A stretch of 46,428 nucleotides of DNA, taken from the NCBI GenBank assembly GCA_028712175.1, contig JAQTQQ010000009.1, positions 1-46,428 of the forward strand, in the 5' to 3' direction. Each line of letters begins with the position of its first letter. The first letter of the stretch is position 1. A model generated the notes under the pieces. That model saw nothing but the letters and a program-made list of their open reading frames with translations. It was not told the origin of the DNA and did not search any database. Made by a program: the position numbers and the translations under genes. Below, piece by piece: positions 10,965 to 40,783 of the stretch. The stretch is from Candidatus Omnitrophota bacterium (GTDB lineage Bacteria; Omnitrophota; Gorgyraeia; Gygaellales; Profunditerraquicolaceae).

Positions 10965-12662
10965 GTGTATATCAGTAATTATCGCCGAAGGAATGAGGCG
11001 GTATTTTTGGTTTTCTTTATTTTTCTGCTACTTTGTGTAGGCCGTCTTCTTTTTATCCAATTTTTCCGCTCCAGTTACCTTACTTCAATAGCTAATAAAC
11101 AACACAACCAGATTGTAGAACTTGAGCCGCGGCGCGGTACAATTTATGATTCTAATCTTAAGGCTCAGGCATTTAATATGTCCATGGACTCGCTTTATGC
11201 TGTTCCTAATGCGATTAAGGATAAAGAAAGCGTAATAAATAAACTGAATTCAATACTTGGCCTTAAACATAGCTATCTTGAAGATAGGCTAAACCGTAAG
11301 AAATCATTTATTTGGTTAGCGCGTAAAATTGCTCCTGATCAAGCAGCAGCGATTAAGAAATTAAATATTAAAGGATTAGATTTCTTAAAGGAAACCAAGC
11401 GTATTTATCCTAACAGCTATTTGGCAAGCCACATAATTGGTTTTAGCGGTATGGATAACGTGGGTCTTGAAGGCGTAGAAAGGACTTATGACAGGTATTT
11501 AAAAGGAGTCCCCGGCTGGGCTGTTTTTTTGCGCGATGCCCGTCAGAAAAAATTGGATATCTGGGAAAAGATGGTCGTTCCCGTTGACGGAGAGGATATA
11601 GTTTTAACTATCGATGAGGTTATTCAGTATATCGCAGAAAGAGAATTAGATAAGGCATTTAGAGATTTTAATGCCAAAGGCGCCAGTATCGTGGTGATGG
11701 ATCCGCATACAGGTAGAATTCTCGCCATTGCTAACCGGCCGACTTATGATTTAAATGACCATTCTCAAGTCAGTAAAGATGCTATGCGTAACCGGGCTAT
11801 CTGCGATCTATTGGAGCCAGGGAGCGTGTTTAAAATAGTTACTGCTTCTGCTGCCCTCGAAGAAAAGAAGATTACCGAGGAAGATGTAATTTTCTGTGAA
11901 AATGGCAGCTATAAAGTAGGCGGCCGCATACTGCATGACCACCGGCCGCATGGCTTGCTTACTTTTAGGCAGGTAATCGAAGAGTCCAGTAATATCGGTA
12001 CGGTTAAGGTTGCTCAGCGTTTGGGTCAGGATAAACTTTACCAGTACGTAAGGGCTTTTGGTTTTGGTTCTAAGTTAGGGATTGATATATCAGGTGAGAT
12101 ATCCGGCATAATTAACCCTCCGCGGCTTTGGTCGAAGACATCTATCACCGCTATACCTATGGGCCACGAGGTAGGGGTTACCGCCCTGCAATTAGCTAGT
12201 GCAATTTCGGTAATTGCTAACGGCGGGCAGTTAATGAAGCCTTATATCATTGATTCTGTGCGCGATAACCAGGGCCGCCTGATTAAACAGAATAAACCGG
12301 TATTAATCCATAAAGTTATTTCATTGGATACGGCTATGCGTATTAAGAAAATACTGACTGGAGTCATTGAGGAGGGAACCGGGAAATTAGCCAAAGTTAC
12401 CGGATTTAGCGCCGCAGGAAAAACCGGTACAGCCCAGAAAATTGAACCAGGCGGGGGCTACTCTCATAGTAAATACGTTGCTTCTTTTATCGGTTTTGCC
12501 CCGGCAGAAGACCCCATGCTGACTATTGTCGTTATAGTCGATGAGCCGCATCCATATTATTTTGGCGGCGTAGTGGCTGCCCCTGTGTTTCAAAAAGTTG
12601 CAAGAGATGCCATACGTTATATAAAAGGTAACGAATTTCCTGTAGAGGCTTTGGCTCAGTGA
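10965..12662 (+). CDS. ftsI: Peptidoglycan D,D-transpeptidase FtsI (PBP3)
   Basis: This class B penicillin-binding protein crosslinks septal peptidoglycan together with FtsW. The 565-residue product has a short cytosolic tail, one membrane segment (about 13-32), a pedestal domain beginning at RRGTIYD, and the transpeptidase domain. The active-site motifs are SVFK with the nucleophile Ser287, SSN at 341-343, and KTGT at 486-489. No PASTA domains follow, which fits a Gram-negative-type enzyme. The start is GTG at 10965, 24 bases after the ftsL-like gene, without a strong ribosome site. It is followed by a 73-base gap before murE, the largest gap inside the cluster. Confidence 0.95.
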   Translation: MYISNYRRRNEAVFLVFFIFLLLCVGRLLFIQFFRSSYLTSIANKQHNQIVELEPRRGTIYDSNLKAQAFNMSMDSLYAVPNAIKDKESVINKLNSILGLKHSYLEDRLNRKKSFIWLARKIAPDQAAAIKKLNIKGLDFLKETKRIYPNSYLASHIIGFSGMDNVGLEGVERTYDRYLKGVPGWAVFLRDARQKKLDIWEKMVVPVDGEDIVLTIDEVIQYIAERELDKAFRDFNAKGASIVVMDPHTGRILAIANRPTYDLNDHSQVSKDAMRNRAICDLLEPGSVFKIVTASAALEEKKITEEDVIFCENGSYKVGGRILHDHRPHGLLTFRQVIEESSNIGTVKVAQRLGQDKLYQYVRAFGFGSKLGIDISGEISGIINPPRLWSKTSITAIPMGHEVGVTALQLASAISVIANGGQLMKPYIIDSVRDNQGRLIKQNKPVLIHKVISLDTAMRIKKILTGVIEEGTGKLAKVTGFSAAGKTGTAQKIEPGGGYSHSKYVASFIGFAPAEDPMLTIVVIVDEPHPYYFGGVVAAPVFQKVARDAIRYIKGNEFPVEALAQ

Positions 12663-17908: not shown

Positions 17909-19003
17909 ATGGTCAGAAAAACGCGTATTAATTTGCTTACGATATCAATTTTACTGGTTTGTATAGGGGTAGTTATGATTTATAGCTCATCAAGTATTTA
18001 TGCCTGGGAGAAATATGGAGATAGTTTTTATTTTCTAAAGAGGCATTTAGCATTTATTTCCATCGGTATATTATTTACTTTTTTAGCCATGATCTTTGAT
18101 TACCGGGTTCTTAGAAAGTATTCTCGACCCTTGCTTTGGGCAGCTCTTATTCTACTTGTTTTAGTGCTTATACCGGGAATAGGCCGTGAGGTTTCCGGGG
18201 CCAGGAGATGGTTCAGGTATAAATTTTTCAGTTTTCAGCCTTCGGAGTTTGTTAATTTAGCGGTTATTATTTATATTGCAGATTTTATTTGCCGTAAGGC
18301 AGATAAAATTAAAATGCTTGTCCAGGGGTTTCTGCCTCCGATGTGCGTATTGGGCGCAACTGTTTTACTTATACTTTTACAGCCGGATTTGGGCACGGTT
18401 ATTGCCTTAGGCAGCGTAGTCTTGCTTATGCTTTATATAGCAGGAGTAAGAGGGAGGTATATCCTGACTTTGATACTTTGCAGCTTGCCGGCGCTTTATC
18501 TTTTAGTATTTAGCGTGCCTTACCGTAGGGCAAGGGTCCTTGCGTTTTTAAACCCCTGGCTTGACCCTAAAGGTACCGGTTTTCAAATTATTCAGTCACA
18601 GGTGGCTATTGGTTCAGGCGGATTATTCGGGCGGGGGCTGGGCCATTCCCAGCAAAAGCTTTTTTACCTTCCCGCAGCGCATACAGATTTTATTTTTTCT
18701 ATCATCGGCGAAGAGCTTGGTTTATTCGGGACGCTCGGTATAATTTTACTATTTATGCTTTTTATTCAGCAGGGGCTTAAAATTATTAAAAATTCACAGG
18801 ATAAATTTGGTTACTTTCTTGCTTTAGGCTTAATTTTAATGATTTCTCTTAAGGCAATCATAAATATCGGGGTTTCCTGTGGTATATTCCCGACCAAGGG
18901 TCTTCCGCTGCCTTTTATAAGCTATGGCGGTTCTTCGTTGATATTTGATATGGTGAGTTTAGGTATATTAATCAATATTGCCCGTACCGGAGAATACCCT
19001 TAA
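17909..19003 (+). CDS. ftsW: Septal peptidoglycan glycosyltransferase FtsW
   Basis: FtsW is the SEDS-family polymerase that works with FtsI at the septum. The 364-residue product has about ten membrane segments. SEDS motifs are present: MIYSSSS near the start, SGARRWF, QPSEF, QPDLGT with the catalytic aspartate, and the AHTDFIFSIIGEELG loop. The C-terminus has KGLPLPFISYGGSS, as in other SEDS proteins. The choice of FtsW over RodA rests on its place between murD and murG; a second SEDS gene at 39683 sits beside PBP2 and is the RodA. Confidence 0.96.
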   Translation: MVRKTRINLLTISILLVCIGVVMIYSSSSIYAWEKYGDSFYFLKRHLAFISIGILFTFLAMIFDYRVLRKYSRPLLWAALILLVLVLIPGIGREVSGARRWFRYKFFSFQPSEFVNLAVIIYIADFICRKADKIKMLVQGFLPPMCVLGATVLLILLQPDLGTVIALGSVVLLMLYIAGVRGRYILTLILCSLPALYLLVFSVPYRRARVLAFLNPWLDPKGTGFQIIQSQVAIGSGGLFGRGLGHSQQKLFYLPAAHTDFIFSIIGEELGLFGTLGIILLFMLFIQQGLKIIKNSQDKFGYFLALGLILMISLKAIINIGVSCGIFPTKGLPLPFISYGGSSLIFDMVSLGILINIARTGEYP

Positions 19004-22325: not shown

Positions 22326-23260
22326 GGGATTTCGGAAGGGTTGGGGTATTGATGGGCGGGCCGTCTTCGGAGCGCCAGATTTCTTTAAAAAGCGGGAAAG
22401 CTGTATTTTCCGCGCTGCTTGACTTGGGCCTTGATACTGTTAGCATCGATATTGTAACCGAGAATAAAAAAGAAAACATACGTTTATTTAAAGAAAATAA
22501 AATAGATTGCGCATTTATTGCCCTTCATGGCCGGTTCGGAGAGGATGGAGGAATTCAGGAAATTTTGGAAGAAATGGACCTGCCTTATACGGCCTCAGGA
22601 GTTTCTGCCAGCCGCCTGGCTATGGATAAGGCAGGATCTCTGGAGATATTCAGGCGGGGCGGTTTGTGCGTGCCTAAATCCCAGGTTTTAGAAAAATCTG
22701 CTTATCGGGGTATAGCTGGTTTTGAAAATAGATTAGGTTTGCCCCTGATAGTTAAGCCTGCCAATCATGGATCAAGTATCGGGCTTTCCCTAGTTGAGGA
22801 TACACAGAATCTGCCTCTGGCTATCGATCTTGCTTTTAAATTTGACCAGCGTGTCATAATCGAAGAGTTTATATATGGCAGGGAGCTTACGGTCGGAGTT
22901 TTGGATAAAGAGGCATTGCCGCCGGTTGAGATCATCCCAAAAAATAAATTTTTTGATTTTGAAGCTAAATACCAGTCAGGGTTGACAGAGTATATTGTTC
23001 CGGCTCATATAGAAGGGGCCGTTGCTAAAAATATACAGCACCTAGCCTTAAAGGCGCATAGGCTTTTGGGTTGTTCCGGATGTTCGCGCACAGATATTAT
23101 ATTAGCTAAAGACGGTTTATCTTATATCTTAGAAGTCAATACCATCCCGGGGATGACCGCTACCAGCCTTTTGCCCAAAGCGGCTAAAATTATAGGAATT
23201 GATTTCAATCATCTTTGCCTTAAGTTGTTGGAATTAGCTTATGAAAAGACAAAAGTATAA
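22316..23260 (+). CDS. ddl: D-alanine--D-alanine ligase
   Basis: Ddl joins two D-alanines for the MurF reaction. The 314-residue product is an ATP-grasp enzyme: GGPSSERQISLKSG near the start, KPANHGSSIGLS, the EEFIYGRELTVGV strand, and EVNTIPGMTATSL near the C-terminus with metal and substrate residues. Nothing in the active-site motifs suggests D-Ala-D-Lac specificity, though I did not align the omega loop. It overlaps murB before it and ftsQ after it. Confidence 0.96.
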   Translation: MEIRDFGRVGVLMGGPSSERQISLKSGKAVFSALLDLGLDTVSIDIVTENKKENIRLFKENKIDCAFIALHGRFGEDGGIQEILEEMDLPYTASGVSASRLAMDKAGSLEIFRRGGLCVPKSQVLEKSAYRGIAGFENRLGLPLIVKPANHGSSIGLSLVEDTQNLPLAIDLAFKFDQRVIIEEFIYGRELTVGVLDKEALPPVEIIPKNKFFDFEAKYQSGLTEYIVPAHIEGAVAKNIQHLALKAHRLLGCSGCSRTDIILAKDGLSYILEVNTIPGMTATSLLPKAAKIIGIDFNHLCLKLLELAYEKTKV

Positions 23261-24029
23261 ATTTCCGATAAACCTAATAATTGTTCTAGCCGTAATTTTT
23301 CTTGCTATCTTTTTATTAATAGGATATATTTGGGAAGTATTAAATACCTCGGATTTTTTTAGCGTTAAGCAGGTTGTCGTGAGAAATTCCGAAGGATATT
23401 TTGATTATTTAAAAGGAAAAAACATATTTAGCTTGGATTTAGATAGCCTGTCGCAAAGGGTTCTTGCCGGATGCACCGATTGCCGCAAGGTAAGGTTCTC
23501 TAGGGTGCTTCCGGATTGTATAGTGGCTGATTTCGTTTATAGGCAGCCAGCCGCTTTAATTAAGTTCTATAAAAATTTCGTCGTAGATGATCAGGGAATA
23601 TTATTTTATCCGAGCTCTGATATCAACCAAGCCGGACTGCCTTTAATTTACGGACTTGAAACGAAGATATTTGCTCCCAAGCTGGGAATAAAATACAAAC
23701 GGCCTGAGCTTGATCTGGCTTTGAATATTATCAGCGAAATTAAGTCCAATAGGATTTTTAAAGATTTTACGCTCAAGAGTATTGATGTTTCAAGTCTCGC
23801 CAGTGCCAGTTTTTTTATGCTTCTTCCGCCGCAGGCCGGAGAGCATACCTTGGTGAAAACGCAAATAGAGCGGTTTGGTTTTGAGGTACGTTTGGGGCCG
23901 GGAAATATTAAGCAGAAGTTGATGATTTTGGGCGGCTTAATAATGCAGGCGCGTAAAGATTGGGGCAATATAAAATATATTGATCTTAGGTTTAAGGAGC
24001 CTTTAATTAAATTAAACAATGCTAAATAA
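23241..24029 (+). CDS. ftsQ: Cell division protein FtsQ
   Basis: FtsQ is a bitopic inner-membrane protein that recruits FtsL and FtsB to the divisome. The 262-residue product has a short basic cytosolic tail (KRQKYK), one membrane segment at about residues 10-30, a POTRA domain beginning at SDFFSVKQVVV, and a beta domain ending in KYIDLRF, which is a typical FtsQ C-terminal strand. Sequence conservation is low, as usual, so position between ddl and ftsA adds weight. It overlaps both neighbours. Confidence 0.9.
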   Translation: MKRQKYKFPINLIIVLAVIFLAIFLLIGYIWEVLNTSDFFSVKQVVVRNSEGYFDYLKGKNIFSLDLDSLSQRVLAGCTDCRKVRFSRVLPDCIVADFVYRQPAALIKFYKNFVVDDQGILFYPSSDINQAGLPLIYGLETKIFAPKLGIKYKRPELDLALNIISEIKSNRIFKDFTLKSIDVSSLASASFFMLLPPQAGEHTLVKTQIERFGFEVRLGPGNIKQKLMILGGLIMQARKDWGNIKYIDLRFKEPLIKLNNAK

Positions 24030-25275
24030 CAATTATATCTGCGCCATAGATATAGGTTCGAATAAGATATCGGCTTGCCTTGCGTTGATTAGGAAAAATA
24101 AGATTGAGAATATTTTCTTTGAAACCATTGTTTCCAGGGGAATCAAAGAAGGCGTGATTGTGGATGCTACAGAGCTGGTAATTTGCATTACTAAGATTAT
24201 AAAAAGCTTAAAGGTCAAATCCGGGTTAAAAATTAAATTCATCCATACAAATTTTTCCGGAAAGGATATTTCGACTAAGCATAGCCATGCAATCATTCCC
24301 CTTGCCGAACGCGGCAATAAAGTAGTTACTTCAACCGACATTGCCTTAGCTAACGAGCAAGCGCGTATTTTGGGCTCAAGCCTGGATGAGGAGATAATCC
24401 ATGTAATTCCTTCCAGTTATTCTATTGATTCTAAAAGTAATGTGATTAACCCTATAGGTTTATACAGCCATAAATTAGAGGTGGATTTATATTTAATCTG
24501 TGCAAGGCTTGCTTCTTTACAAAGCCTAAGCCGGGTTATAGGGCAGGCCGGATATGAAATCAGAAGTCTTTCTTTTTCAGGGCTTGCAACAAGTAAAGCT
24601 GTATTTGCTGGCGAGGAAAAACGGGGGGTAAGCATTTTATGCGATATAGGAAGCGATGTAACTGAGCTTCTTACATTTAAAGACGGCCTCCTGCAAAATA
24701 TCCAGATTTTGCCTTTGGGGGGCAATAGCATGACTCAGCAGCTTTCCGAGGGACTAAAAATAAATTTTGAACTGGCGGAGGATATTAAGCGTTCTTACGG
24801 AGTTATCGGCGGGGCGGAAAATATTCAAGAGGACAAAGAGATTTTAGTTAAGAAAGACGAATTTTATAAACCGATAAAACAAAGGGAAGTTGCACAAATG
24901 GTTACTAATTCAAGCCGCTTGATATGTTCTCAAATTAAGGAAGCGGTTGAAAATAAGTTGGCTCTTCACGAGATTGACCATTTTGTTATCGCCGGTAAGA
25001 CTCTTCTGACCGACGGGTTTATCGAAATGATGGAAGAGGTGATACGTATTCCGGTTGCAATCGGTAGGATCAAAAATCCGTATGCAGCTGTTTTGGCAAA
25101 AGAAAATAGCGATTTAACCGGGCAGAAATATTTAACTTACTTGACCTGCCTTGGGATGATTTGCGAGGATTTAGAGAATAAAAACTTTGGGACCACGAAA
25201 TTAGTCAAGCCTGCCAAGAATCTACTGATTAAAGCGCTAATCCGCTTCAAAGAAGTCTATCAGGAATATTTCTAA
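24019..25275 (+). CDS. ftsA: Cell division protein FtsA, with divergent nucleotide-binding motifs
   Basis: FtsA is an actin-like protein that anchors FtsZ filaments to the membrane. The 418-residue product has the phosphate-1 loop AIDIGSNKISA near residue 9, the SHS2 region with IKEGVIVDATE, and a C-terminal segment (LLIKALIRF to the end) that could be the membrane-binding amphipathic helix. Two conserved ATP motifs look degraded. Phosphate-2, normally DIGGGTTD-like, reads DIGSDVTE at 209-216. The adenosine motif, normally TGGGxxLPG-like, reads IAGKTLLTDG at 324-333. The gene is the last of the dcw cluster here, and no ftsZ follows; a heptad array and then yggS come next. Confidence 0.9.
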   Translation: MLNNNYICAIDIGSNKISACLALIRKNKIENIFFETIVSRGIKEGVIVDATELVICITKIIKSLKVKSGLKIKFIHTNFSGKDISTKHSHAIIPLAERGNKVVTSTDIALANEQARILGSSLDEEIIHVIPSSYSIDSKSNVINPIGLYSHKLEVDLYLICARLASLQSLSRVIGQAGYEIRSLSFSGLATSKAVFAGEEKRGVSILCDIGSDVTELLTFKDGLLQNIQILPLGGNSMTQQLSEGLKINFELAEDIKRSYGVIGGAENIQEDKEILVKKDEFYKPIKQREVAQMVTNSSRLICSQIKEAVENKLALHEIDHFVIAGKTLLTDGFIEMMEEVIRIPVAIGRIKNPYAAVLAKENSDLTGQKYLTYLTCLGMICEDLENKNFGTTKLVKPAKNLLIKALIRFKEVYQEYF

Positions 25276-25277
25276 TT

Positions 25278-25348
25278 TAGTTTTTAGTTCGTAGCTCTTA
25301 GCTAATTGGAAGCCATTACAATAGTACCTATGAGCTATGAGCCAACTA
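25278..25348. repeat. Heptad array B, at the site where ftsZ would be expected
   Basis: TAG starts at 25278, 25285, 25292 and 25299, exactly every 7 bases, covering all three frames. The facing arm has CTATGAG twice in a row (25328-25341). CGTAGCTCTTAG (25290-25301) pairs with 25328-25339 apart from one mismatch and one G-T wobble. The word TAGTTTTTAG and the heptad TAGCTCT recur in array D. Confidence 0.85.
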
Positions 25349-25352
25349 ACAT

Positions 25353-25380
25353 TTGACCCTCTCCCGATATTGTGTATAAT
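25353..25380 (+). promoter_or_regulatory. Strong sigma-70-type promoter for the yggS operon
   Basis: The -35 TTGACC (25353-25358) and a perfect -10 TATAAT (25375-25380) are 16 bases apart, with a TGTG just before the -10. Transcription should start near 25387, leaving a leader of only about 8 bases before the yggS ATG. Confidence 0.85.
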
Positions 25381-25394
25381 ATATTATCTAATCT

Positions 25395-26048
25395 ATGATT
25401 AAAGAAAATATTGAAAGAGTTAGGCAGCGTATTTCCGCAGTTTGCGCAAGGATTAATGTTTGTCCGCATAAAATATCGATAGTTTGTGTAACTAAGGGCC
25501 GGACGCTTGAGCAGATTGCGCAGGTAATCGGTTTAGGATATAAAGATATCGGCGAAAACAGGGTGCAGGAGGCTTCGGAGAAACATAAGCAGATCTTTGG
25601 GGCAAAGTGGCATATGATCGGCCACCTGCAGTCAAACAAAACAAAAGAAGCCGTAAGAATATTTGATTTAATCCATTCAGTTGATAGTGTTGGGTTGGCC
25701 CGGGAAATTAATAGGCAGGCAATTAAGATAAACAAAACCCAGGATGTCATTCTTGAGGTAAAGACTTCGGAAGAAAAAACTAAATTTGGCTTCGTTCCGG
25801 TTGAGCTTCAGGATGCTGCTATTGAAATTTGTAAATTAAGTAATCTTAGCGTAAAAGGGCTAATGACCATCGCCCCATTGATGGAGAACAGCCAAGAAAC
25901 GCGGAAATATTTCTCTTTGGTCCGCAAATTGCGCGATCGGTTAAATCCTCGGTGGTTGCTTTCAATGGGCATGTCTGATGATTTTGAAATAGCGATAGAA
26001 GAAGGGGCGGATATAATAAGGCTAGGAAGAGTGATATTTGAGGGGTAA
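25395..26048 (+). CDS. yggS: YggS/YlmE-family pyridoxal-phosphate homeostasis protein
   Basis: These PLP-binding proteins keep free pyridoxal phosphate and amino acid pools in balance and have no proven catalytic activity. The 217-residue product has the PLP lysine at residue 34 in VCVTKGR, the GENRVQEA motif, WHMIGHLQSNK, and the C-terminal MSDDFEIAIEEGADIIRLG. In many bacteria this gene follows ftsZ near the end of the dcw region, so its position here marks the missing ftsZ site. The predicted leader is too short for a ribosome site and none is visible. proC begins two bases after it, a common pairing. Confidence 0.95.
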   Translation: MIKENIERVRQRISAVCARINVCPHKISIVCVTKGRTLEQIAQVIGLGYKDIGENRVQEASEKHKQIFGAKWHMIGHLQSNKTKEAVRIFDLIHSVDSVGLAREINRQAIKINKTQDVILEVKTSEEKTKFGFVPVELQDAAIEICKLSNLSVKGLMTIAPLMENSQETRKYFSLVRKLRDRLNPRWLLSMGMSDDFEIAIEEGADIIRLGRVIFEG

Positions 26049-26049
26049 G

Positions 26050-26880
26050 ATGAAAAACGTTGGCATCATCGGCTATGGAAATATGGGTTGTGCAATAGCA
26101 GAACGCATAAAAGATAAATATGCGGTATGTGTTTTTGATAATGATAAAGATAAGACTGCCGCCTTAGAAGATGTGGTTGTCGCCGAAGATATTCCCGGCT
26201 TAATAAAACAATCAGAAGTCGTAATTTTAGCAGTTAAACCGCAGGATTTCGATTCATTGCTTGGCGAAATCAAGGATTATTTGCAGGATAAAGTAGTAAT
26301 TACTATTGCCGCCGGTGTTACTACGAAATATATGAAAAACCGTTTGGGAGAAAAAGCCCGTATCGTAAGAGTGATGCCTAATATGCCTGCTCAAATAGGT
26401 AAAGGAGTTTCTGTTATATGCAAAGGGCAGAGCAGTAATGACTCCGGACCGGATTTGGCCTGGCATCTGGCCCATGATATATTCAGTAATTTAGGTTCGG
26501 TATTGGTTGTAGATAAAGAAGAAATGGTCAATGCAGCAACCGCGGTTTCCGGAAGCGGTCCGGCTTTTTTCTGCTACCAGATAAAAGACAAGAAAAACGC
26601 TGCTTCTAAGCGCAACGAGTTCATAAAATTACTTACTGAATCCGCGGCCAGCCTTGGTTTTGATTGGAAAGAAGCAGAATTTTTGTCCGAAAAAACTGTA
26701 GACGGTATTATCGCTATGTTAATCGAGCGGAATTTATCCTGTGTGGATATAATAAAAATGGTTGCTTCTAAAGGAGGGACAACCCAAGCAGGCCTTGAGG
26801 TTTTAAATTCAGGGGGCTCTCTCGAAGAAGCAGTTAAAAGCGCATATAAACGCGCAGATGAACTGGGACAAAGGAGTTAG
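26050..26880 (+). CDS. proC: Pyrroline-5-carboxylate reductase
   Basis: ProC makes L-proline from pyrroline-5-carboxylate using NAD(P)H. The 276-residue product has the Rossmann loop VGIIGYGNMGCAI, AVKPQDF, RVMPNMPA, SGSGPAFF, and the C-terminal SKGGTTQAGLEVL motif. The segment after SGSGPAFF, where other ProC proteins have an alanine-rich helix, reads KDKKNAASKRNEF and is unusually charged. I chose the ATG at 26050, with GAGGGG upstream, rather than the TTG at 26038 that overlaps yggS. Confidence 0.94.
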   Translation: MKNVGIIGYGNMGCAIAERIKDKYAVCVFDNDKDKTAALEDVVVAEDIPGLIKQSEVVILAVKPQDFDSLLGEIKDYLQDKVVITIAAGVTTKYMKNRLGEKARIVRVMPNMPAQIGKGVSVICKGQSSNDSGPDLAWHLAHDIFSNLGSVLVVDKEEMVNAATAVSGSGPAFFCYQIKDKKNAASKRNEFIKLLTESAASLGFDWKEAEFLSEKTVDGIIAMLIERNLSCVDIIKMVASKGGTTQAGLEVLNSGGSLEEAVKSAYKRADELGQRS

Positions 26881-35603: not shown

Positions 35604-35633
35604 TCACCTACTGTCTAAGCAATGGGAGATAAT

Positions 35634-36707
35634 ATGGAAAAATTCAGCCAACAGTTAAAAAGAGGGGTCAATTACGTACTTGGCCTGTTCTCTAATGATA
35701 TGGGAATTGACCTGGGAACAGCTACGACTCTGGTTTTTGTAAAAGGAGAAGGGGTAGTGCTTTGCGAGCCTTCTGTAGTAGCTATTGAACGCGGGACTTC
35801 ACATGTTTTAGCTGTTGGTGATGAGGCTAAGCGTATGCTTGGGCGCACTCCGGGTAATATTATTGCAATACGTCCGATGAAAGACGGGGTTATTTCCGAT
35901 TTTGAGATTACCGAAGCTATGCTTCGGTATTTTATTAAAAAGGTGCATCACCGCAAGGTTTTAGTGCGTCCCCGAATTGTGATTGCTATTCCTTCCGGGA
36001 TAACCGAAGTTGAAAAACGTGCGGTAAAAGATTCTGCCGAAAGGGCAGGCGCAAGAGAGGTCTTTTTGATTGAGGAGCCGATTGCCGCAGCTATCGGCGT
36101 AGGGCTGCCTATCCAGGAGCCTATTGGTAACATGATCATTGATATCGGCGGCGGTACTACAGAGATTGCGGTTATCTCGCTTTGCGGTACGGTTTTTTCA
36201 AAATCTATCCGCATCGGCGGTGATGAAATGAATGAGGCGGTTATTGAATACCTTAAAAAGACATATAACTTGATGGTCGGCGAACGCAGCGCTGAAGAGA
36301 TAAAAATTAAAATTGGCTCAGCTTATCCTTTAGAGGAAGAGATGAGTATGGAGGTCAAGGGGAGGGATTTGGTTGCAGGTCTTCCTAAAACAGTTACAAT
36401 TACCAGCGAAGAGATCCGCGAATCCCTGCAAGAGCCGCTGCGTGCCATATTGGAAGTTATAAAAATATCATTAGAGCGTACTCCCCCTGAATTAGCCGCT
36501 GACCTTATTGATCATGGCATAGTTATGGCCGGTGGCGGTTCGCTATTAAGGGGATTAGATAAATTGATTTCCGAGGAAACCGGGCTTCCGGTGCATATAA
36601 CCGATGATCCAGTTACTGCGGTTGCTAATGGAACAGGCGTCGTCCTTGGTGAAATACACTACCTTAAGAAAGTAACCGTACCCGTTAAAACCGAGGTACG
36701 TAATTAA
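35634..36707 (+). CDS. mreB: Rod-shape protein MreB
   Basis: MreB is the bacterial actin that guides lateral wall synthesis. The 357-residue product has the phosphate-1 loop [14 protein letters not shown], the phosphate-2 loop [14 protein letters not shown], and the adenosine motif [13 protein letters not shown], all intact, unlike FtsA in this window. An N-terminal helix with Lys/Arg and hydrophobic residues ([13 protein letters not shown]) could bind membrane. I chose the ATG at 35634 because GGGAG sits 5 bases upstream; the ATG at 35622 overlaps that site. Confidence 0.97.
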
Positions 36708-36728: not shown

Positions 36729-37502
36729 GTGTTTAAGCCGTCCCGTAAAACCATAATTAATCTCGTCATTTCTGTCTGCGCCGTAATTCTGATTTCTAAT
36801 TCTCTGTCTTGTTTTAAAAATTACGCACAAAAATCACTTAAGCCCAGTCTTTCTCTAATCGGTTTGCTTAAACGCGAATTTGGAGGTATGATTTTCTACC
36901 ATCGGAATATGATTAAGGCTGAGGAGCTAGATAGCGAGGTTGAAAAGTTGCGCTTGAACCTGTTTGAGCTGCGTGAAATTTATCAGGAGAATATTCGGCT
37001 TAACAATTTGTTAAATTTTAAACAAAAATCTCCTCTGCGTTTGGTTTCTGCGAGGGTAATCGGACGCGCTGTCGATAGCTGGACATCATGCGTTATTATT
37101 GATAAAGGTAAAAAAAGCGGGATTAAATCCGGGATGGTGGTAATTAACCATCGTGGTTTAATCGGAAGAATAGCCGAAAGCAGCGATTCTACCAGCAAAA
37201 TATTGTTGATTAATGATCCCAGCCAGGGTATTTCAAGTATTGTCCAGCGCAGCCGGCAGGAAGGGCTGGTTAGCGGGACTCTCGGGACAAATTTAGTCAT
37301 GAAATACCTGCCCGAGGATGCGCAAATTGCTTCCGGAGACGTTATTGTTACTTCGGAGTTAAGCCGGGTATATCCTAAGGGCCTTTTAATCGGCAGGGTT
37401 ATTAATGTCGGTTACGAATTTTCCGGTCTTAACCGCTATGCTGTTATCCGGCCGGCAGTTGACCTTGCTAATATTGAAGAGGTCCTGGTAATTATTCCAT
37501 GA
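36729..37502 (+). CDS. mreC: Rod-shape protein MreC
   Basis: MreC is a bitopic periplasmic scaffold that activates PBP2-RodA. The 257-residue product has a membrane segment at about residues 9-27, a coiled coil at about 55-95, and two beta barrels with VIIDKGKKSGIKSGMVVI and the HRGLIGRI strand. Start is GTG at 36729; the overlapping ATG at 36727 is in another frame and stops at once. The gene overlaps mreD in an ATGA. Confidence 0.94.
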   Translation: MFKPSRKTIINLVISVCAVILISNSLSCFKNYAQKSLKPSLSLIGLLKREFGGMIFYHRNMIKAEELDSEVEKLRLNLFELREIYQENIRLNNLLNFKQKSPLRLVSARVIGRAVDSWTSCVIIDKGKKSGIKSGMVVINHRGLIGRIAESSDSTSKILLINDPSQGISSIVQRSRQEGLVSGTLGTNLVMKYLPEDAQIASGDVIVTSELSRVYPKGLLIGRVINVGYEFSGLNRYAVIRPAVDLANIEEVLVIIP

Positions 37503-37969
37503 AGAAGGCCTTTCTTTTTTTGGCTGTAATTATTCTATCCATACTGCAATTGACTTGGCCGGGTTTTTTGGTTTTTTTCCATTGTAAGCCGGATTTTCTT
37601 TTGGTTTTTGCCGTCTCGGCTGTTTTTTATTTAGATTTTAAATCAGCCCTGATGGCAGCTGTTATATCCGGGCTGGTTAAGGATATATCCCTGCCGGGAA
37701 ATTTGCCGGTAAATACAATCCTTTTTAGCCTATGGAGCTATCTGGTTTATCGATTATCTCAACAGATTTCTACCGACAGCCATTATGTGCGCCTGGCCAT
37801 TGTTCTAATCGCAGCTTTTTTTAATAATATAGCAACCGGCTTATGGGTTATAAATTCCGGTAATACCATACCGGCAGGCATATTTATTCGGAATCTTATT
37901 ATTCCTTCAGTTTATTCAACTATATTATCACCTTTAGTTTTTAAACTTATTAAAAAAATAACAGCATAA
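37499..37969 (+). CDS. mreD: Rod-shape protein MreD
   Basis: MreD is a small polytopic membrane protein of the elongasome. The 156-residue product has about five hydrophobic segments and the family-like FFHCKPDFLLVFAVSAVFY stretch near residue 22, with the glycine-rich GLVKDISLPG after it. Its short length, hydrophobicity and position between mreC and PBP2 support the name. The start overlaps the mreC stop, and PBP2 starts four bases later. Confidence 0.9.
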   Translation: MKKAFLFLAVIILSILQLTWPGFLVFFHCKPDFLLVFAVSAVFYLDFKSALMAAVISGLVKDISLPGNLPVNTILFSLWSYLVYRLSQQISTDSHYVRLAIVLIAAFFNNIATGLWVINSGNTIPAGIFIRNLIIPSVYSTILSPLVFKLIKKITA

Positions 37970-37973
37970 TCTA

Positions 37974-39686
37974 ATGGACCGAAAAATCATATTAAATTTC
38001 TTTGTTATTTTTATGTTTATTGCTTTGTTGGCCGGTTTATTTAACCTCGATTTGCTGCAGGGCAGTAAATTCCGTAAACTTAGCGATAGTAATTGTATCC
38101 GCCTCATATCGCAATTAGGCGCAAGGGGAAATATTTTAGACCGTAACGGGGAAGTTATCGTAAATAATAAAATATCTTATGATGTAATGGTCCTGCCTCA
38201 GGATTTAAGCCAAATCGGGCCTGTTTTGACTAAGATCAGCCGTATATTAGGAATAAGCACTAATGAATTGAATGCTGCTTTCAAGAAAAATTTTATTTCT
38301 GCAAGCGTCCCGGTGACTGTTGCCAGTAACATAGAGCTCAAAAAAGCTGTAGCCCTTGGCGAATATAAGGCTGAAGAGCCAAGCATTATAATTGCGCCCA
38401 AGCCGTTGCGCAATTATCCATACGGCGCCTTAGCCTGCCATATTATCGGTTATGTAAATGAAATTGACCGTTGGCGGCTTACGAAACTTGAAGATTACGG
38501 CTACAAAACTAAAGATATCGTAGGGTTTGGCGGTGTTGAGGAGAAATACGATTATTACCTTCGCCAGGAAGAAGGGGGGCTGTCTGTTGAGGTAAATCAT
38601 CGGGGAAAATTTATGCGTGTTTTGGGTTTTCAGGCGCCCAGAAACGGTAAAGATGTCCAGCTTACCATAGACCTCAATATCCAGAAAGCCGCGGAGGAGG
38701 CATTGTCAGGCAAGAAAGGAAGCGCAATCTTAATGGATGCGCAAAGCGGAGAGATTTTAGCGTTAGCCAACTACCCGAATTTTAATCCGGCAGTTTTTGT
38801 AAATCAACGCTCTAAAATTTCCAGGCTTTTCAATAATCCCGATTCTCCATTGGTAAACCGCGCAATCGGATCAAGCTATCCGCCGGCATCTATTTTTAAA
38901 ATTGTTGGTTCTGCGGCCGGCCTTGAGTTAAAAAAAATAAACCTTTCTACTACCTATGTGTGTTCCGGCTCTACTATGGTAGGCCGAAGAAAGTTTGCCT
39001 GCTGGGATACACACGGGCCTCAGGATATTTATCAGGCGCTCGCGCATTCCTGCGATATATTTTTTTATAAAACCGGGTTATTGATGGGTGCTCAAAGTAT
39101 TCATGATTATGCTTTAAAGCTGGGCTTAGGCAGGACTATGGGATTTGAGCTGCCCTATGAGGTAAGCGGTTTTATCCCCTCTCCTTTGTGGAGGAAAATT
39201 AATAGGTTTCAGAATTGGTTTGACGGAGATACTGCTAATTTGAGTATCGGACAAGGTGATTGCCTGGTTACTCCTTTACAGGCAACTAACATGATAGCCC
39301 CATTTGCAAACGGCGGTTATTTATTGAATCCTTATATCGTAAAAGCCATAGGCGGTTTGGACCTTTCGGCGAAAAAGAAAAAGCTTACGGCGGTAAATTT
39401 TAGGAAAAGTACTCTGGATGTGGTTACCAAAGGGTTACGCAGGGTGGTCTCCGATAAAGAAGGTACAGGGAATGTTTTATCAAGCCTTCCTGTTGCGGTA
39501 GCCGGTAAAACAGGTACGGCGCAGGTTACCCGTGGTGCGACGCATGCGTGGTTTGTCGGATTTTTCCCCTATGAGAATCCAAAATTTATAATTTGTGTTT
39601 TTTTAGAGCACGGCGGCCCGGGGCATGCTGCCGTGGTTTGTGCTAAAAAGATTATCGAAGAAATGAGCCTAAAGGGGTTAATATGA
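37974..39686 (+). CDS. mrdA: Penicillin-binding protein 2 (elongation transpeptidase)
   Basis: PBP2 is the class B transpeptidase that pairs with RodA in side-wall growth. The 570-residue product has a membrane segment at about 7-27, the RGNILDRNG pedestal motif at 51-59, and the transpeptidase motifs SIFK with Ser306, SCD at 359-361 and KTGT at 512-515. The SxD form of the second motif is typical of PBP2, whereas FtsI here has SSN. The start follows mreD by four bases and the end overlaps rodA. It ends shortly after GHAAVVCAKKI, so there is no long tail. Confidence 0.95.
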   Translation: MDRKIILNFFVIFMFIALLAGLFNLDLLQGSKFRKLSDSNCIRLISQLGARGNILDRNGEVIVNNKISYDVMVLPQDLSQIGPVLTKISRILGISTNELNAAFKKNFISASVPVTVASNIELKKAVALGEYKAEEPSIIIAPKPLRNYPYGALACHIIGYVNEIDRWRLTKLEDYGYKTKDIVGFGGVEEKYDYYLRQEEGGLSVEVNHRGKFMRVLGFQAPRNGKDVQLTIDLNIQKAAEEALSGKKGSAILMDAQSGEILALANYPNFNPAVFVNQRSKISRLFNNPDSPLVNRAIGSSYPPASIFKIVGSAAGLELKKINLSTTYVCSGSTMVGRRKFACWDTHGPQDIYQALAHSCDIFFYKTGLLMGAQSIHDYALKLGLGRTMGFELPYEVSGFIPSPLWRKINRFQNWFDGDTANLSIGQGDCLVTPLQATNMIAPFANGGYLLNPYIVKAIGGLDLSAKKKKLTAVNFRKSTLDVVTKGLRRVVSDKEGTGNVLSSLPVAVAGKTGTAQVTRGATHAWFVGFFPYENPKFIICVFLEHGGPGHAAVVCAKKIIEEMSLKGLI

Positions 39687-40783
39687 GGAATTCATTTTTT
39701 ACGATCTTAATTCTGGCTTTAATTATCGCCATTTCCGGAGTCTTATCTATTTACAGCAGTACTTATCAGAAAGAAGGGGCATGGCAGGATATACATCTTC
39801 GCCAGATACTCTGGGTTACCATTGGTTTAGTTTGTTTTTTTATTGTTTCCGGTCTTAACTATCGTAAGCTTTGGGATGCCAATTATTTTATTTATGGAGC
39901 AGCGCTATTCTTTCTTTTTTTGGTTTTTGTCCTTGGGATCACAAGGTTGGGCGCGCAGCGCTGGCTCAAGATTGCCTGGTTTAATTTTCAGCCCTCTGAG
40001 TTTGCAAAACTTGCGATTATCATATTTTTAGCCCGGTATTTTAGCCGTAAGTCAGTGGATGATACCTCTCTATTATCCGGTAAATTCGGGATCTTTAGGG
40101 GCCTGATCCTGCCTTTTATATTCGTTGGGATTCCAATGTTTCTGATTATTGAGCAGCCGGATTTAGGAAGCGGCCTTATGCTTTTGTTTGTTTTTGTCTG
40201 CCTGCTTTATTTAACCAATGTCCGGCTAAAATATATTCTTACGTTTTTAACCCTAATAATTTTGCCGCTGCCTTTTTTCTGGCATTTCCTGCGGGATTAC
40301 CAGAAACAGAGGTTATTGGTTTTCTTAAATCCGAATATTGACCCTTTAGGCGCAGGATATACAATAATCCAGTCGCGTATAGCTATTGGTTCCGGAGGTT
40401 TCTTTGGCCGCGGCTGGCTAAGTGGTTCCCAGAGCCAGCTGTATTTCTTGCCGGAATCGCATACGGATTTTATTTTTGCTACGTTTAGCGAACAGTGGGG
40501 TTTTTTGGGAAGCTCTCTTTTAATTTTACTGTATTATTTGATTATCCGTCAGGGTTTTGTGATCGCCCAAAGGACACAAGATACATTTGGCAGGCTGCTT
40601 GCTTACGGCATATCCCTCTTATTGTCAATGCAGGTATTTATTAATATCGCGATGAATATGGGGCTTGCTCCGGTAGTAGGGCTGCCGCTTCCTTTAATGA
40701 GCTATGGCGGATCAAGCATTTTGGTTACCTTTATTGCATTGGGTATCTTGGTGAATATCGATAGGACCAGGACCGTATTTTAA
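39683..40783 (+). CDS. rodA: Rod-shape SEDS glycosyltransferase RodA
   Basis: RodA polymerises lateral-wall peptidoglycan in complex with PBP2. The 366-residue product has about ten membrane segments, the GAQRWLKIAWFNFQPSEF motif, QPDLGSG with the catalytic aspartate, the ESHTDFIFATFSEQWG loop, and GLPLPLMSYGGSS. It is a paralogue of ftsW at 17909. The start overlaps the PBP2 stop as ATGA. It closes the elongasome operon before gap E. Confidence 0.95.
   Translation: MRNSFFTILILALIIAISGVLSIYSSTYQKEGAWQDIHLRQILWVTIGLVCFFIVSGLNYRKLWDANYFIYGAALFFLFLVFVLGITRLGAQRWLKIAWFNFQPSEFAKLAIIIFLARYFSRKSVDDTSLLSGKFGIFRGLILPFIFVGIPMFLIIEQPDLGSGLMLLFVFVCLLYLTNVRLKYILTFLTLIILPLPFFWHFLRDYQKQRLLVFLNPNIDPLGAGYTIIQSRIAIGSGGFFGRGWLSGSQSQLYFLPESHTDFIFATFSEQWGFLGSSLLILLYYLIIRQGFVIAQRTQDTFGRLLAYGISLLLSMQVFINIAMNMGLAPVVGLPLPLMSYGGSSILVTFIALGILVNIDRTRTVF

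Follow-up and report, generated by a model that had tools for sequence, protein, structure and literature searches.

The window, i.e., the whole stretch of DNA analysed here (46,428 nucleotides), is contig C4 of an Omnitrophota MAG with 1.26 Mb in 24 contigs (94.95% complete, 0.19% contaminated), whose named close relatives are nearly all Candidatus Omnitrophota MAGs. The features of interest are as follows.

10965..12662, + strand: ftsI-type transpeptidase (PF00905, PF03717)
17909..19003, + strand: ftsW, septal glycosyltransferase (TIGR02614 equivalog, 421 bits at a cut-off of 337.5)
23241..24029, + strand: ftsQ (PF03799, 25.3 bits, above cut-off)
24019..25275, + strand: ftsA, cell-division actin FtsA, 418 aa (TIGR01174, PF14450, SHS2_FTSA, alignment)
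25276..25394, no strand: ftsA-yggS intergenic gap, 119 bp, ORF-free; the slot of ftsZ in complete dcw clusters
25276..25349, no strand: copy of a dispersed heptad hairpin repeat, called array B in the original prediction (arms 25284-25304 / 25325-25345)
25353..25380, + strand: yggS promoter TTGACC-16-TATAAT (11/12 consensus matches; conservation)
25395..26048, + strand: yggS/ylmE, PLP-binding protein (TIGR00044 with 173 bits, PF01168); flanks ftsZ in complete clusters
26038..26880, + strand: proC, pyrroline-5-carboxylate reductase (PF14748, PF03807); next in the conserved flank
35622..36707, + strand: mreB, elongasome actin (PF06723 with 493 bits, TIGR00904 with 511 bits)
36729..37502, + strand: mreC (PF04085)
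37499..37969, + strand: mreD (PF04093)
37974..39686, + strand: PBP2-type transpeptidase (PF00905)
39683..40783, + strand: rodA (PF01098; TIGR02210 rodA equivalog)

FtsZ is the almost universal cell-division tubulin, and FtsA is usually seen as its membrane anchor. Compared to the canonical dcw order (mraZ...ftsI-mur-ftsW-murG-murC-murB-ddl-ftsQ-ftsA-ftsZ), the order in the window is intact through ftsA and ftsZ is absent; several mur and mra gene names are assigned here by position and translation alone. Between 25275 and 25395 there are 119 bp without a gene, which confirms the original prediction that ftsZ is missing between ftsA and yggS. A full mreBCD-PBP2-rodA elongasome cluster is located 10 kb from ftsA, i.e., on the same contig as ftsQ, ftsW and the ftsI-type gene, and FtsK is encoded in the host genome.

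We searched the entire host genome with the tubulin/FtsZ model PF00091, which yielded zero matches; the same search is positive in 13/14 control genomes. No match is found in 39 order-level relatives either. For the phylum, we surveyed 384 Omnitrophota genomes, among them 249 of high quality and some consisting of a single contig (e.g., G110 and G108), using PF00091 and the FtsZ model TIGR00065. Both models are positive in 13/14 controls, archaea included. PF00091 matches are restricted to 2/384 phylum genomes (382/384 are without), and TIGR00065 exceeds its cut-off in 1/384. A credible native FtsZ is found in 0/384 genomes. SepF, considered as an alternative factor, is above cut-off in none of 145 genomes. 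The loss of FtsZ is phylum-wide and probably ancestral. The option that ftsZ may merely have moved is refuted, since FtsZ is found neither in the host genome nor in its 39 relatives nor in the phylum survey, and the suggestion of a possible FtsZ-free division is supported, for the whole phylum and not only for this organism.

The sole canonical FtsZ of the phylum set (L001) is encoded on the 3.7-kb contig C130 of genome G302. It is most similar to the FtsZ1 of Methanocaldococcus (309.6 bits, compared to about 249 bits for the best crystallised bacterial homologues) and adjoins an FKBP26-type gene. Given the archaeal FtsZ1 as nearest sequence, the FKBP26-type neighbour and the short contig, we reject it as a native gene. 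It is probably archaeal contamination, DPANN-type or other, and contaminants of this kind could mislead FtsZ surveys. Furthermore, only two Omnitrophota genomes encode TubZ/RepX-like tubulins (L002:1012-2295 in G220 and L003:999-2261 in G302). These proteins measure about 425 aa, carry a lysine-rich tail at the N-terminus and possibly derive from plasmids or other mobile DNA. When the G220 protein is used as query, no second full-length match is obtained in 193 genomes, and we therefore reject the TubZ-like protein as a phylum-wide FtsZ replacement.

We also inspected the ftsA-yggS junction in relatives, where ftsZ was never found. In close relatives, yggS follows ftsA, mostly directly and in few cases with a small ORF in between; in a few further loci an unrelated gene follows ftsA or the locus ends too early. 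Distant families show the order ftsQ-ftsA-yggS-proC-yggT-mtnP-like-ileS, or ftsA-proC where yggS is absent, or other genes. No constant gene that occupies the ftsZ slot was found in these families. The ancestral arrangement is ftsQ-ftsA-ftsZ-ylmE-proC-ylmG, and the present junction is its remnant after the deletion of ftsZ.

The FtsA of the window reaches 191.2 bits for the TIGR01174 equivalog (cut-off 175.85) and shows both FtsA domains of Pfam (PF14450, SHS2_FTSA), with 55.8 bits (cut-off 25.4) for the SHS2 (1C) subdomain specific to FtsA (PF02491). With 34 bits against 133, it is clearly separated from the PilM model, and it is distinct from MreB as well. Foldseek ranks FtsA structures first, with global TM-scores of merely 0.33-0.38; the AlphaFold model of the protein is poor, i.e., its pLDDT of 59.6 is too low for claims on the FtsZ pocket. 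In the least saturated pairs, FtsA shows dN/dS values of 0.07-0.13 and thus purifying selection. FtsA (PF02491) is present in 328/384 phylum genomes and in 219 of the 249 high-quality ones. About 14% of the phylum genomes are without an FtsA match, some of which are perhaps true losses. In good genomes of the families f14 and f37 (e.g., G067, G117, G191, G197, G200, G220, G221) the SHS2_FTSA match is none or marginal; here FtsA may be decaying or lost, which would make them test cases for MreB-only division.

To compare FtsA sequences, we aligned 58 Omnitrophota FtsA with 18 FtsA from Proteobacteria, Bacillota, Spirochaetota, Campylobacterota and Fusobacteriota, whose sources presumably all carry FtsZ; in three fetched control loci ftsZ is adjacent to ftsA. 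Following work on the E. coli and Thermotoga proteins, we take the helix with R300 and E303 (E. coli numbering) to be FtsZ-binding. The PDB contains the Thermotoga FtsA:FtsZ(336-351) complex (4A2A). R300 is found in 18/18 controls vs. 8/58 Omnitrophota, for which the Fisher value of 1e-11 ignores shared ancestry and is descriptive only. Within the window's own clade it is retained in 0/20 sequences, 17 of which show a serine. For E303, the numbers are 16/18 vs. 11/58, and a basic/acidic pair at both positions is retained in 12/58 Omnitrophota; the window's FtsA has Ser and Leu at the equivalent positions. Since other columns conserved in the controls have drifted too (D242, T249, G214, L334, T335), the loss of R300/E303 is part of a wider FtsA divergence. 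Judged from the alignment and the role assumed for the two residues, the FtsZ-binding signature of Omnitrophota FtsA appears to be mostly eroded.

The predicted ATP-site residues, on the other hand, are retained to 74-100% in Omnitrophota FtsA, and the C-terminal tail ends in YF in 58/58 sequences (...QEYF in the window). The median hydrophobic moment of the tails is 0.60 vs. 0.62 for E. coli, but the moment exceeds that of shuffled versions of the same tail (p<0.05) in only 47% of cases. The tail of the window's FtsA is weaker than that of most members (hydrophobic moment 0.49, p 0.32 vs. shuffles). Omnitrophota FtsA has the equivalog model, the SHS2 (1C) subdomain, the ATP-site residues and a putative amphipathic C-terminal tail in common with canonical FtsA (E. 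coli, Vibrio, Thermotoga, S. aureus) and differs from it in that the genome encodes no FtsZ partner and R300/E303 are mostly lost.

The absence of FtsZ in Omnitrophota is already known in passing, i.e., a figure legend in Pende 2021 (PMC8178401) shows Omnitrophica among the FtsZ-less phyla based on a small sample. The same paper names only Planctomycetes and Chlamydiae as also lacking FtsA and SepF, which implies that FtsA is kept in Omnitrophica, and does not discuss FtsA persisting alone. Rivas-Marin 2016 (PMC5147048) detected FtsZ in OLB16 alone and drew no conclusion for the other Omnitrophica. Because of that genome it also groups Omnitrophota with FtsZ users, and a 2017 review (PMC5945725) and a 2025 paper (PMC12283558) place them with FtsZ-using phyla as well, the latter describing the dcw genes of Omnitrophota as highly conserved. 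The classification of OLB16 was wrong, and the genome is now assigned to Ca. Hinthialibacterota (PMC10066038, PMC11382960). This clears up the contradiction within the PVC literature: the 'Omnitrophica' FtsZ genome from 2016 belongs to another phylum. We found no paper in the open-licence literature on the persistence of FtsA in Omnitrophota without FtsZ. What looks new is the retention of FtsA without FtsZ, under purifying selection (dN/dS of about 0.1) and with an eroded FtsZ-binding signature.

Two other FtsZ-less systems are related. Chlamydiota (dividing via MreB/RodZ and FtsK) have in common with Omnitrophota the PVC superphylum, the lack of FtsZ, and the retention of MreB, FtsK and peptidoglycan synthesis genes. 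Planctomycetota likewise lack FtsZ and keep some dcw genes. FtsA is absent from Chlamydiota (PMC8178401), whereas Omnitrophota keep it within a nearly intact dcw cluster; Planctomycetota, in contrast to Omnitrophota, have no FtsA and a fragmented cluster (PMC12283558).

The interpretation that we favour, with slightly better than even confidence, is that FtsA acts as a membrane-bound, ATP-binding actin in FtsZ-independent division, its curved filaments steering FtsW/FtsI, after ftsZ was deleted in or before the Omnitrophota ancestor. That is, the dcw cluster would have lost ftsZ by the time of the phylum's common ancestor and closed up to ftsQ-ftsA-yggS-proC-...-ileS, and the cells would divide without a Z-ring. 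FtsA would have been kept after the loss of its partner, with a role in division that does not depend on FtsZ, and its putative curved filaments would direct the septal synthases FtsW/FtsI via FtsQ and related proteins. MreB or FtsK, which are both present, may help to choose the division site, such that FtsA filaments, alone or with MreB, would replace the Z-ring as organiser. FtsA of E. coli and Vibrio forms curved antiparallel double filaments with an MreB-like preference for negative Gaussian curvature; these filaments have been proposed to keep septal synthesis aligned (PMC7613929). In Omnitrophota, most cells measure about 0.2 um (PMC10066038), so the need for a long-range organiser may be relaxed. 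Going by sequence, Omnitrophota FtsA probably has a role in division. We put forward only tentatively the stronger claim that division throughout the phylum relies on an autonomous FtsA-actin divisome, i.e., that FtsZ-free FtsA filaments are the primary scaffold steering septal wall synthesis.

As the main alternative, the organisation of division may have been taken over by MreB, together with a RodZ-like partner, and by FtsK, as in Chlamydia. FtsA would then be no more than an accessory, connecting MreB or FtsQ with the septum, or would have another role in the envelope. MreB is found in 190/193 genomes and in 162/162 high-quality ones, where weak cross-matches to other actin-like proteins are counted and 179 are above cut-off. 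The complete elongasome cluster near ftsA and the presence of FtsK are in line with such a take-over, and chlamydial MreB and RodZ can substitute FtsZ activity in E. coli (PMC7029139). However, MreB is universal in FtsZ-bearing rods also, i.e., its presence is unspecific. Moreover, purifying selection maintains FtsA in most of the phylum, and its gene has remained beside ftsQ in the dcw cluster, whereas FtsA is lost in Chlamydiota and Planctomycetota (PMC8178401). We consider a take-over of this kind rather unlikely.

It is improbable in our view that the FtsZ function is carried by a protein that sequence searches do not recognise, be it a strongly diverged tubulin or an unrelated filament protein with its gene elsewhere. 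The TubZ/RepX-like tubulins of two genomes document that odd tubulins do occur in the phylum, and the conservation of FtsA invites a partner. But PF00091 and TIGR00065, which detect FtsZ even in archaeal controls, yield nothing in the host genome, the TubZ-like protein has no second full-length match in 193 genomes, the ftsZ slot of distant families holds no constant gene, and FtsA has mostly lost its presumed FtsZ-docking pair. An artefact of assembly or binning by which ftsZ is systematically missing could draw on the fact that most searched genomes are fragmented in the style of metagenome assemblies. It is nevertheless extremely improbable, as the very same assemblies do contain FtsA and MreB and the survey that left no credible native FtsZ includes high-quality and single-contig genomes. 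An assembly gap at the junction is refuted, since ftsA and yggS are contiguous without ftsZ in many independent assemblies.

The presence of FtsA and a nearly full dcw cluster without FtsZ separates two roles of FtsA, namely that of a tether and that of an organiser of septal synthesis. Omnitrophota provide a natural setting in which to ask whether an actin can drive septation by itself.

Finally, the original prediction had placed a heptad array and a new promoter in the gap left by ftsZ. For the array, the position is literally true but the meaning does not hold, since it is a dispersed repeat that is not conserved at the junction. It consists of just 2.1 exact copies of CTATGAG with a TRF score of 30, which equals the threshold, and forms the right-hand one of two 21-nt arms in an imperfect inverted repeat (76% complementary), which folds better than 198/200 shuffles (z -2.65). 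Given that its hairpin family has 25 further matches in the host genome, several with (TAGCTCT)n-type arms, we reject the idea that the array is left over from ftsZ or replaces it. Dispersed, hairpin-like intergenic heptads of type TAGCTCT/TAGCTCG are seen, e.g., at G000:C16:14962-15013, C22:68995-69059 and C19:30148-30177; the repeat is possibly a small mobile or REP-like element.

Among relatives, the content of the gap varies, i.e., it holds other sequences or almost none; in L056 and L058, which belong to distant families, ftsA and yggS are separated by 3 bp. In L005, L006, L009 and L022, the gap is occupied by short elements that differ from one another and are palindromes or inverted repeats, e.g., GGGGTCAGAGCTAA..., GGGGACGGTTCT... 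and GTCACAGGCATGCCTGTGAC. The gap thus resembles a site where insertions of small repeats are tolerated. The array at the junction is incidental. The promoter, on the other hand, is real, as its TATAAT is kept in 14/16 loci compared (window included), but it is not new; it is the yggS promoter common to relatives. In the window, its -10 box ends 14 nt before the ATG of yggS, with similar spacing in relatives, which suggests that the yggS mRNA is nearly leaderless.
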